Positions 2,810-5,384 of a stretch of DNA of 5,413 nucleotides are shown piece by piece (position 1 is the first letter of the stretch; every line of letters begins with the position of its first letter). A program made the position numbers and the translations under genes. This DNA comes from Methanobacteriota archaeon (GTDB lineage Archaea > Thermoplasmatota > Poseidoniia > Poseidoniales > Thalassarchaeaceae). A model generated the notes under the pieces. The model was not told where the DNA came from. It worked only from the letters and a program-made list of their open reading frames with translations, and did not search any database. The stretch covers positions 1-5,413 of the forward strand of contig JACNFL010000109.1 in assembly GCA_014384685.1 (NCBI GenBank). Reading direction: 5' to 3'.

Positions 2810-2845
2810 ATGAATGGTCGTCCGGTCGCCGTGCCGAATGGATGA
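2810..2845 (+). other. Possible 11-codon upstream ORF overlapping the rpsB start
   Basis: An ATG at 2810 opens MNGRPVAVPNG and stops at the TGA at 2843-2845, which overlaps the preferred uS2 start (ATG 2838-2840) by 8 bases in another frame. Such an arrangement could couple or attenuate uS2 translation. It is very short and may be chance. Confidence 0.15.
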
Positions 2846-3452
2846 ACAGAGTGCTCCCCTGCTGGCGTACGAGGACTATGAAGCGAACGCTGTGCACATA
2901 GGTACTCAAACAAAGAGTAAGGACATGCAGAACTTCATCTCCAAGACAGAAACAGATGGTGCAACAATCCACCTTATTGACGTCACCAAGACTGACGAAA
3001 GAATCGGTTTCGCTGCTAATTTCATCAATCAGTATGATGGACGTGACATACTTGTTGTCAGCGCTCGTCAGTATGGACAGCGCCCTGCTCGTATGTTTGC
3101 TCAAGCAATCGGTGCTCGCCAAATAGTTGGCAGATTTATCCCTGGAACTCTTACCAATCCAAATTTACGCACCTACATTGAACCACGAGTTATCTTCGTG
3201 ACTGACCCTCAAGCAGATGCTCAAGCACTTTCAGAAGCTGTCAAGAGTGGTTTACCTGTAGTTGGTATCTGTGATACCAACAATCATCTTCGAAACGTTG
3301 ACTTCTGCATCCCTGCTAACAACAAAGGTCGCCGAAGTCTAGCACTAGTCTACTGGCTGCTATCCCGTGAAGTACTCAAAGGTCGTGGAGAGACTGACGA
3401 TGCTACATGGGCACATCACCAAAAAGTTGAGAGTTGGGAATCTTCCTTCTAG
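2838..3452 (+). CDS. rpsB: 30S ribosomal protein uS2 (archaeal S2p)
   Basis: uS2 is a protein of the small ribosomal subunit, on the solvent side between head and body. With the ATG at 2838 it has 204 residues, normal for Archaea. Family blocks are seen in order: AVHIGTQTKSKDMQNFI, a DERIGFAANFI segment, VSARQYGQRPARMFAQAIGA, GRFIPGTLTNP, YIEPRVIFVTDPQADAQA, GLPVVGICDTNN, and PANNKGRRSLALVYWLLSREVL, with an acidic polar tail. The frame is also open from an ATG at 2814 (212 residues), but those eight extra residues (MVVRSPCR) do not resemble the family. The 2838 start puts HIGTQ about 20 residues in, as in other archaeal S2 proteins. Arginines use CGT/CGC often, as expected of a highly expressed gene. 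It is not next to the rpoN-rpoK-eno cluster that often accompanies rpsB in Archaea; dus diverges upstream and a Cas4-like nuclease gene follows 100 bases later. Confidence 0.97.
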   Translation: MDEQSAPLLAYEDYEANAVHIGTQTKSKDMQNFISKTETDGATIHLIDVTKTDERIGFAANFINQYDGRDILVVSARQYGQRPARMFAQAIGARQIVGRFIPGTLTNPNLRTYIEPRVIFVTDPQADAQALSEAVKSGLPVVGICDTNNHLRNVDFCIPANNKGRRSLALVYWLLSREVLKGRGETDDATWAHHQKVESWESSF

Positions 3453-3552: not shown

Positions 3553-4788
3553 ATGGGTGACTCTACAACAGCCGGCGGCGCCTCTTCAGGTGACTCTAAT
3601 CCTGATGTTGATCTCCCATTATTCACAGCCACACAGAGTGATGATGGAATCTGGAGAGACTCAGAAGGAATCGCATTACCAGTTTCAGCAAGTGACTTAG
3701 AACGCCATGCTTACTGCCCACTCTCATGGAAATTAGCTCGCTCAGGTGTAAAAGGTTCAGGCGATGCTATTGAACTTGGTAAACAACGTCACACAGAAAT
3801 TGAACAAGCGATGAAAAAATACCAGTACCACGATTTGAAAGCGAGAAGAGAGATGGTCATCTGGACATGGTGGTTCGCAATTGTGGTTGCTTTAACCCTT
3901 GATACGGCTGCATTTTTCTTCGTAGAAGAGGGAGTGATTGCTGATAGCGACTTTGGCCTTTTTGCCCGTTATCTCGCCATTCTAGCATTGGTTTGGTTAA
4001 TCTTAGCAATACTTCTATTGCTCCTCCCATGGAGAAAATACCTTGGGACACCTTTTGGTTTGGCTCAACCACCAACACCCTCTGAATTTGATATTGTTGA
4101 CCTTGAACTCTACCAATTTGAGAAAGATGGCTCGAAATCTAGTGGCTGGTGGGCTGGAGGTAAAGTTGAGTTCACAATCCTACTTGGAAGCATGACTATT
4201 GCCCTACACGGATTAGCACTGTTTGAGGCGCAACAGCGCTCAATAGCAACTTTTGTCCTATTAGTAGCTACACTAGGCTGGACTCTTATCGCATCTTGGC
4301 AACTTCACAAGGGATTACTCGCAAATACTCTTGTTGAAGAAAAAGGCAAGGAACTTGGAATTGATAGTGGTTCTGTACTAGCCTACAATGATGATTCCAC
4401 TTCTTCTGATCTTCTCAAAGACGATACTACAGGTATTAGAGGACGGCCAGACCAAATCATCATCTTCGAAAATGAGGTTGTGCCAGTAGAACAAAAAACT
4501 GGTAAAATTCCTACACAACCACACTTTAGCCACAAAATACAGTTGTACGCTTATCTTCATCTTGTATCAAAGATTACCAATAATCAACTCAGATACGGCA
4601 TACTCCGTTACGGCGATGAGGCAATTCACAAAATTAGTTGGGGAGAGGGTGAAAGTAAAGTCCTAATGAAAAATCTGAAAGAAATTCAGAGATTGATGGT
4701 TGAAGGTGGCGCTAAAAGAGACCACGATAGGCCAGGAAAGTGCCGAAATTGCTCTCGTCGGCATCGCTGTCCAGAAGCACTTGACTAA
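3553..4788 (+). CDS. Membrane-embedded Cas4/RecB-like PD-(D/E)XK nuclease with Fe-S cysteines
   Basis: 411 residues. The Cas4/Dna2-type nuclease fold (Fe-S-binding DNA exonuclease) is present but split. Residues 1-40 are polar, probably disordered. The front part has SASDLERHAYCPLSWKL (first Fe-S Cys, C55) and GKQRH with motif-I H80. The rear part has GRPD (D300), VPVEQKTGK (E313 and K315 of E-x-K) and QLYAY (Q330, Y332, Y334), then C397-x2-C400-x5-C406 at the C-terminus, the Cas4 cysteine pattern. All catalytic and cluster residues expected of the family are present. Between H80 and D300 lie four hydrophobic helices: about 101-123, 138-160, 205-226 and 229-251. Basic flanks (KARRE, WRK, HK) and an acidic first loop place both nuclease halves in the cytoplasm by the positive-inside rule. 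Ordinary Cas4 proteins are about 200 residues and soluble. No cas genes or CRISPR array are seen, so a role in spacer acquisition is unsupported. The gene follows rpsB by 100 bases. Nuclease family sure, biological role unknown. Confidence 0.88.
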   Translation: MGDSTTAGGASSGDSNPDVDLPLFTATQSDDGIWRDSEGIALPVSASDLERHAYCPLSWKLARSGVKGSGDAIELGKQRHTEIEQAMKKYQYHDLKARREMVIWTWWFAIVVALTLDTAAFFFVEEGVIADSDFGLFARYLAILALVWLILAILLLLLPWRKYLGTPFGLAQPPTPSEFDIVDLELYQFEKDGSKSSGWWAGGKVEFTILLGSMTIALHGLALFEAQQRSIATFVLLVATLGWTLIASWQLHKGLLANTLVEEKGKELGIDSGSVLAYNDDSTSSDLLKDDTTGIRGRPDQIIIFENEVVPVEQKTGKIPTQPHFSHKIQLYAYLHLVSKITNNQLRYGILRYGDEAIHKISWGEGESKVLMKNLKEIQRLMVEGGAKRDHDRPGKCRNCSRRHRCPEALD

Positions 4789-5384
4789 ACGGGGATGCAT
4801 TCGTCAGGGTCTGCACGCTCAGGAAATTCAATGCAAGGGCGGATGACTGAAACCGAGACTTCAAACTCATCGTGGAAGGAAATTTGGTCAATTGGAGTAT
4901 CTAAGCCATATCCTTGAGCATCAACTTCCAGTTCCCACACTCCAAATTCAAAGGGAGGGGAAAATCTCTGTAACGGTGGGTAACGGTCAGTCGTGGCATT
5001 CTCTTCCCAATATGGAGTATCTGTATTCTTATTCGCCCCTGGCTCCCATAACATTGCGTGCACATATCTCACTGTGCTGGTTAGATTACTAGTCTCAACA
5101 CCAGCGATTTCGCTGAAATCCATCTGCACGCGGAAGAAAACCTGTATTTCTTTGACTTCAGAGTCAATACGAATTTGATGGGGCTGCGGATGGAAGATAA
5201 TATCTTCAGGGTCTGTAGAATCAAAGACATGGTCAAAACCCAATACAACGACATCATCTTTGGTTTCCGGAACACCCCTATTCCACTCCATCAACTCTCT
5301 GCTCGCAACCAAACCAATACAACCAGAAAAGAGACTCATTGAGAGTAGAATGGCGGCGAGGAAGAGGGGTTTGGCGGCTCTCAT
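4785..5384 (-). CDS. Predicted lipoprotein of unknown function
   Basis: 199 residues. The N-terminus is a lipoprotein signal peptide: a basic start (MRAAK), a hydrophobic stretch (about 6-19) and a lipobox-like LFSGC with C22 as the presumed lipid-attachment Cys. The mature protein would be anchored on the outer face of the cytoplasmic membrane. The rest is acidic and rich in alternating hydrophobic residues (VVVLGFDHVF, EIQVFFRVQM, FGVWELEVDA, FEVSVSVIRP), suggesting a beta-sandwich domain; I recognise no family. Two N-glycosylation sequons (N100-L-T, N129-A-T) and two late cysteines (C184, C196) that could form a disulfide fit an extracellular location. The ATG at 5382-5384 is the only start that keeps the signal peptide whole; an in-frame TAG lies directly before it. 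Its TAG stop overlaps the TAA of the convergent Cas4-like gene (4-base overlap of the two reading frames). Confidence 0.8.
   Translation of the reverse strand: MRAAKPLFLAAILLSMSLFSGCIGLVASRELMEWNRGVPETKDDVVVLGFDHVFDSTDPEDIIFHPQPHQIRIDSEVKEIQVFFRVQMDFSEIAGVETSNLTSTVRYVHAMLWEPGANKNTDTPYWEENATTDRYPPLQRFSPPFEFGVWELEVDAQGYGLDTPIDQISFHDEFEVSVSVIRPCIEFPERADPDECIPV

Follow-up and report, generated by a model that had tools for sequence, protein, structure and literature searches.

CRISPR Cas4 proteins are soluble, Dna2, AddB and AdnA carry helicase parts, and ComEC of natural transformation joins a membrane protein to a nuclease-like domain that works on DNA at the membrane. Here we analysed a stretch of 5,413 nucleotides from a Methanobacteriota archaeon (Thermoplasmatota, Poseidoniales, Thalassarchaeaceae; contig JACNFL010000109.1 of assembly GCA_014384685.1), called the window below, in which an open reading frame (ORF) with an ATG start at 3553..4788 on the + strand encodes a predicted membrane-embedded solo-Cas4-type nuclease of 411 amino acids, whose architecture differs from that of ComEC. 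We propose, with a probability of roughly 0.77, that this protein has an integral-membrane solo-Cas4-type anatomy and is a functional nuclease on the inner membrane face.

The CRISPR Cas4 proteins of known structure (8d3l of type I-C, 7mi4 of Cas4/Cas1, SSO0001 as 4ic1 and Pcal_0546 as 4r5q) share the fold and, where aligned, the motifs of the window protein, but their matched chains have no membrane insertion and the single-domain ones span 190–218 residues; the nuclease domains of Exo5, Dna2 and AddB/AdnA likewise have no membrane part in the matched region. Solo-Cas4 proteins (COG1468/PF01930, PF12705), according to Hudaiberdiev et al. 2017 (PMC5704561), are mostly inherited vertically, occur in many genomes without CRISPR and have an uncharacterised role, for which defence or repair has been suggested. 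They share with the window protein the motifs, the four cysteines and the non-CRISPR location. The window protein differs in that membrane hairpins interrupt its catalytic domain; the main text of that paper contains 'transmembrane' 0 times and uses 'membrane' a single time, of another protein. According to PMC12538437, whose main text uses 'membrane' 0 times, four archaeal Cas4 proteins have 5'-to-3' exonuclease activity. The relevant passages of PMC4158269 and PMC10354927 describe no membrane-embedded Cas4 either, and we found no such description in the open-licence papers searched, which is not proof of absence. In databases, relatives of the window protein are labelled 'CRISPR-associated protein Cas4'.

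Predicted catalytic residues and membrane insertion

The predicted iron-sulphur (Fe-S) ligands and the catalytic motifs, all on the + strand, lie on either side of the insertion. C55, the first predicted cysteine ligand, is part of a YCP motif (3715..3717), and H80, the histidine of motif I (3790..3792), is on a continuous predicted helix (residues 71–125) that extends into the first membrane helix. Beyond the insertion come D300, the motif II aspartate in GRPD (4450..4452), which aligned to Cas4, motif III as E313-x-K315 (4489..4497), the Q330-x3-Y334 motif (4540..4554) and C397-x2-C400-x5-C406 (4741..4770), the other three predicted cluster ligands, so that by sequence four cysteines flank the nuclease core, as expected of a Cas4-type protein. 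C55, H80, D300, E313, K315, Q330, C397, C400 and C406 were unchanged across 26 diverse homologues, and in an alignment of 148 sequences all of them were invariant save E313 and Q330, which were conserved in at least 90 %. A preliminary description of this DNA had named these residues together with Y332; all are present and conserved in homologues except Y332, the invariant tyrosine in homologue alignments being Y334.

By pattern, the histidine and ExK were found in 231/231 Poseidoniales forms, in 15/15 forms with four helical hairpins between the motifs and in 11/11 with one (C55 and D300 were used to parse this set, and their own counts in it are uninformative). The two-hairpin forms outside Poseidoniales had ExK in 117/143 and [ED]xK in 142/143. 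In some two-hairpin members the glutamate of motif III is an aspartate (L112, L113, L126). These data bear on the alternative that the protein is no longer a nuclease and acts as an Fe-S sensor or a structural membrane protein retaining the Cas4 fold. In its favour, signalling would be a possible use of a conserved membrane part, E313 is replaced by aspartate in some members and one split gene pair (L223, see below) seems to be without the histidine and the lysine; nevertheless, the invariance of H80, D300 and K315 in the 148 sequences and the presence of His and ExK in every Poseidoniales (231), four-hairpin (15) and one-hairpin (11) form make this alternative improbable.

Family profiles agreed with a Cas4-like nuclease, as first suggested: the window protein matched PF12705 (PDDEXK_1) with 36.3 bits, above the curated cut-off of 22, and the Cas4 model of PADLOC with 1.5e-17. 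The NCBIfam equivalog TIGR00372 (cas4) gave 57.0 bits, below its curated cut-off of 65, and we therefore name the protein Cas4-type and not a TIGR00372 equivalog. Among relatives, the same profile scored the C-terminal half of a split form (L228, 77.1) and a one-hairpin form (L163, 67.6) over the cut-off and the C-terminal half of another split form (L231, 59.8) under it. The Exo5 profile reached 17.3 bits, below its cut-off of 25, and the family profile scan matched no helicase families within the nuclease ORF. In weak local alignment (4.5 bits) C55 stood opposite the YCP of Pcal_0546 (4r5q), and C397, C400 and C406 were aligned with cysteines at the C-terminal end of 4r5q and 8d3l.

In agreement with this, comparison of the predicted structure recovered the Cas4 fold across residues 36–411, the two nuclease halves aligning across the insertion as one domain, which is the arrangement that the preliminary description had expected a structure prediction to show. 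The closest fold matches were CRISPR Cas4 proteins; SMC coiled coils and other long-helix look-alikes, with middling Z, were disregarded. The model compared replaced an earlier one built from 26 sequences, which was too weak (predicted local distance difference test score, pLDDT, 67.3; predicted template modelling score, pTM, 0.53).

Between H80 and D300 there are 219 residues with four hydrophobic segments, matching the approximately 220 residues and four segments noted earlier. Hydrophobicity and the predicted structure place the first hairpin at transmembrane helices TM1 (residues 106–124, 3868..3924) and TM2 (residues 140–158, 3970..4026), joined by a loop predicted to be outer, and the first helix of the second hairpin at TM3 (residues 205–223, 4165..4221); TM4 (residues 230–248, 4240..4296) lies within a continuous predicted helix, 229–268, that returns to the nuclease core. 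Lysine and arginine residues (K+R) numbered 3, 5 and 1 in the inner flanks and loop of the window protein and 1 in each of its two outer loops. Outside Poseidoniales, the one-, two- and four-hairpin groups had 2.4–10.5 K+R per inner and 0.2–1.2 per outer loop or flank.

Sequence comparison and the predicted structure thus point to a membrane-inserted protein with both nuclease halves in the cytoplasm: with two hairpins between motifs I and II, the halves would join on that face. The core would be a Cas4/RecB-like PD-(D/E)XK domain, predicted to hold an Fe-S cluster, from which the chain would exit on a long helix between the histidine helix of motif I and the aspartate strand of motif II, cross the membrane as two hairpins, or four helices, and return on a second long helix. 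The halves would fold together at the cytoplasmic face, leaving the enzyme hanging from the membrane by two helical stalks. Judging from the archaeal Cas4 proteins that have been characterised, it would be expected to use a metal ion in trimming 5' ends that are single-stranded or in flaps.

Two residues within the membrane helices, D117 (TM1, 3901–3903) and H219 (TM3, 4207–4209), are polar and yet unchanged among 26 Poseidoniales homologues, and an intramembrane role beyond anchoring is possible for them. In one relative (L124) the loop that joins TM1 to TM2, predicted to be outer, is longer by about 100 residues (approximately residues 107–213 of that protein). Pfam gave no match for this extra stretch, and match coordinates suggest a similar one in another relative (G141/L196).

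Hairpin number and split genes

A profile of proteins of this kind selected 416 family members at E<=1e-20, of which 400 could be parsed and 16 could not; the parsed proteins are related and reduce to 93 representatives at 70 % identity. Between the motifs we counted four hydrophobic segments in 370, eight in 15, two in 11 and three in 4, the last probably having one segment under the threshold. The number was therefore 2, 4 or 8 in 396/400, which upholds the even number of helices proposed at the outset. A search with a one-hairpin query gave 118 parsed proteins among the 120 listed, all with two segments, as the query predicts.

Outside Poseidoniales, the hairpins of two- and four-hairpin forms matched each other with hhalign scores of 47–80, and those of one-hairpin forms matched them with scores of 30–53, the maximum of the reversed-profile controls being 19.1 (n=72). 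Poseidoniales hairpins scored 5–33 against those of other groups. An off-register control was uninformative, as it shares helices with the compared units and its scores equal those of real pairs, and the reversed control was used instead.

In 22 of the 30 loci fetched for weakly matching genomes (L197–L226) the nuclease was encoded by two adjacent ORFs; L197, L208, L212, L215, L218, L222, L224 and L226 had no split pair, and L225, diverged and of unclear start, was omitted from the tallies and the tree (n=21). The first ORF, 80–93 amino acids as called, contains the cysteine and histidine motifs and closes with a hydrophobic helix near the stop codon. The second holds the aspartate, ExK, the glutamine and three cysteines and, as called, opens with a hydrophobic helix in 16/21; in the remaining five (L198–L201, L205) the helix is in frame, but part or all of it precedes the first ATG, GTG or TTG past the stop. 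Since a helix ends the first ORF and another begins the second, the break interrupts a single hairpin at its predicted outer loop. Such a break at 21 loci, together with the single Cas4 domain of the model, is what cytoplasmic halves would lead one to expect, and comparative evidence in this way supports the topology put forward in the preliminary description.

An ATG or TTG was located between −8 and +1 nt relative to the stop in 9/21 split loci, and in 10/21 an ATA overlapped the stop codon at that place, possibly reflecting an unusual start codon, coupled reinitiation or a frameshift fusion. A Shine–Dalgarno-like stretch was present near the stop in 15/21 (by a loose pattern of uncalibrated chance rate). 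By pattern, His, ExK and Q-x3-Y were each present in 20/21 pairs; the other motifs had served to find the pairs and were not counted. The pair L223 keeps the membrane helices and appears to be without the histidine and lysine motif residues, possibly through decay or a new function. Four of the 21 (G381, G393, G394, G397) lie on contigs of 1.8–2.3 Mb, and contigs of this length, together with the same break in all split loci, make an assembly error unlikely. In a 58-row tree of the nuclease parts, with rows chosen by identity thresholds, the 21 split rows formed one group (100/98) and architecture required 7 changes as compared with 29.4 in shuffles; the tree is unrooted, so it gives no direction between split and fused forms.

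Distribution and candidate roles

A protein search returned 959 proteins at E<=1e-3, of which the best 120 were listed; these searches span all sources with the best 120 listed for each, and the few named rows were archaea of like kind. In species-representative genomes, 297/317 pattern-matching stretches were confirmed, and the 80 retained carry archaeal titles (Poseidoniales, Poseidoniaceae, Thalassarchaeaceae/Thalassarchaeum, Marine Group II, 'Euryarchaeota', 'euryarchaeote' and 'Thermoplasmata'). A profile matched in 178/292 genomes of the order Poseidoniales and in 246/389 genomes of the phylum, where weak matches may include other Cas4 proteins. Nothing was found in a search of 17 genomes, which is weak evidence, as these genomes are possibly incomplete.

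Both the nuclease and the inserted membrane part are under purifying selection. Of nine relatives compared, five (L001–L005) had an estimable overall synonymous rate, and their ratios of non-synonymous to synonymous rates were 0.06–0.08 in the nuclease part and 0.08–0.22 in the membrane part; the cytoplasmic loop alone was variable (0.02–0.40), and synonymous sites in L005 were near saturation. An assembly, frameshift or chance artefact, a caveat raised in the preliminary description, would have to account for hundreds of homologues with a like insertion and for selection on the inserted part, and its likelihood is practically nil.

We rejected CRISPR adaptation for Poseidoniales: cas1 (PF01867) was matched in 0/193 of their genomes and in 9/14 control genomes, in keeping with the earlier remark that the gene lies outside any visible CRISPR-Cas locus. 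The nuclease is thus encoded outside CRISPR-cas loci, as a solo-Cas4 should be, and not adjacent to cas1/cas2. More broadly, the protein might be a Cas4 of CRISPR adaptation located away from its cas locus, given that its nearest fold matches are CRISPR Cas4 proteins, that databases name relatives so, that a Pyrococcus solo-Cas4 handles one prespacer end, as cited in PMC12538437, and that 11 of 27 carriers outside Poseidoniales had cas1 above the cut-off (one, G403, by short pieces only). However, 15 of the 27 had no cas1 match and one more matched only under the cut-off, and in the five genomes with both genes on one contig (G324, G350, G370, G394, G421) they were approximately 80 kb or more apart. 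With the result for Poseidoniales, which refutes the proposal there unless their cas1 is too divergent for PF01867, these data leave it highly unlikely.

The main alternative explanation is that the enzyme guards the cell boundary, degrading or trimming viral, plasmid or environmental DNA that enters through the membrane, in defence, uptake or salvage. A position at the inner membrane face fits this role, Cas4 relatives serve CRISPR adaptation, an alternative defence would be useful to Poseidoniales without detectable cas1 (0/193), and the suggestion of defence or repair made for solo-Cas4 (PMC5704561) extends to it. On the other hand, purifying selection was ordinary, and the recurrent neighbours were housekeeping genes (the scan for defence families covered the window neighbours). 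Across 87 loci beyond Poseidoniales or at their margin these differed by lineage: a GlmS-type neighbour in 18 and a GlmU-type in 16, an RLI/ABCE1-type ATPase accompanying split forms (8 loci) and, next to one-hairpin forms, genes of NTPase, Trm1, RNA polymerase L and TruD types; identities were checked on single representatives, and only recurrent neighbours were annotated. ComEC was matched in 0/40 Poseidoniales genomes, which says little against a guarding role, as only bacterial and no archaeal controls matched. We consider such a role rather unlikely. Two narrower candidates were set aside: uptake through ComEC, on the same weak 0/40, and a viral origin, as none of the 37 and none of the 13 pattern-matching stretches in viral_contigs encodes a relative.

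Tentatively, we regard processing of cellular DNA on the inner side of the membrane, on replication, recombination or segregation intermediates and not in CRISPR adaptation, as the likeliest role. In five of 20 extended loci (L230–L233, L243) the split gene forms a row on one strand with genes for SMC, for a class I aminoacyl-tRNA synthetase and for a kleisin-like protein, with FEN1-type and Rad51-type genes close by; Pfam names were assigned on L232 only, kleisin was matched weakly (E 0.0019, below its cut-off), and the N-terminal half in L233, uncalled in the neighbourhood script, is visible in L219. A wider and more speculative proposal is that the nucleases of this family across the phylum are assembled by the membrane, with an active site complete only once transmembrane hairpins (1, 2 or 4), evolving as whole modules, join the two cytoplasmic half-domains, and that they maintain the chromosome at the membrane alongside SMC–kleisin, FEN1-type and Rad51-type functions. 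The split clade would then be a natural split nuclease, encoded by two coupled genes, with each half on a single membrane helix and the two reunited in the bilayer.

Several results weigh against a conserved, membrane-anchored nuclease acting on cellular DNA. The positive-inside bias is weak in Poseidoniales (K+R 1.8–5.3 inner vs 1.2–1.7 outer), and in their short last outer loop K+R per residue showed no difference, so that the basic cytoplasmic flanks of the preliminary description are clear only in the groups outside this order. The two Poseidoniales hairpins are not recognizably homologous to each other (score 2.1), and the N-terminal motifs align weakly with the sequences of solved Cas4 proteins (4.5–5.4 bits). 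The association with SMC, FEN1 and Rad51 is limited to five loci of one clade. NurA was found in 8/32 carriers vs 7/17 genomes without a match, and is thus patternless outside Poseidoniales. Finally, 114/292 genomes of the order were unmatched (perhaps being incomplete). Of 20 unmatched genomes sampled, 19 contain rpsB, and these 19 loci represent one Poseidoniales clade from which the gene is missing: in an RpsB tree with 125 rows they formed one group (100/98). That lineage can therefore dispense with the function.

Replacement of NurA by the nuclease was rejected, as carriers and non-carriers showed no pattern. In Poseidoniales, NurA was matched in 0/40 genomes with or without the nuclease gene and in 7/14 controls, four of them archaeal, raising the question of which nuclease resects DNA ends there.

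A membrane-built form that extends through much of Thermoplasmatota, and into marine archaea with no cas1 detected, would locate the enzyme and make its role testable, and modular hairpins with a natural split in the predicted outer loop would offer a clean system for studying membrane assembly and control of an active site.

Neighbouring genes in the window

In the window, the nuclease gene is preceded by rpsB (2814..3452, + strand), which encodes ribosomal protein uS2 (family profile and locus comparison), and followed by a convergent ORF (4785..5384, − strand) that overlaps its stop by 4 nt, has a lipoprotein-like N-terminus by eye and matched no Pfam family above the cut-off. The preliminary description had asked whether insertion and surroundings persist among homologues: the insertion does, and in parsed Poseidoniales loci rpsB was the upstream neighbour in 79/93 and the convergent ORF the downstream one in 91/93, while elsewhere neighbours differ by lineage, as described above. 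For this tally, 17/110 loci without the nuclease on the + strand were dropped, and some loci are the same place counted twice. In the nuclease-less clade, the lipoprotein-like ORF adjoined rpsB in 18/19 loci with no nuclease between them; it stays beside rpsB where the nuclease is missing, is probably not a partner of the nuclease, and we claim no functional tie.

Upstream, at 1–1724, the window contains two ORFs with winged-helix-type matches, relatives of both of which lie upstream in other Poseidoniales loci. The second had weak PADLOC matches to Csa3 (3.3e-5) and to a CARF-type model (0.027), probably due to its helix-turn-helix part. A second, broken copy of the nuclease gene was present in one genome (G005, contig C6:85792-86948), with three TGA codons in one piece and an intact copy on another contig, and could be the result of a mixed assembly.
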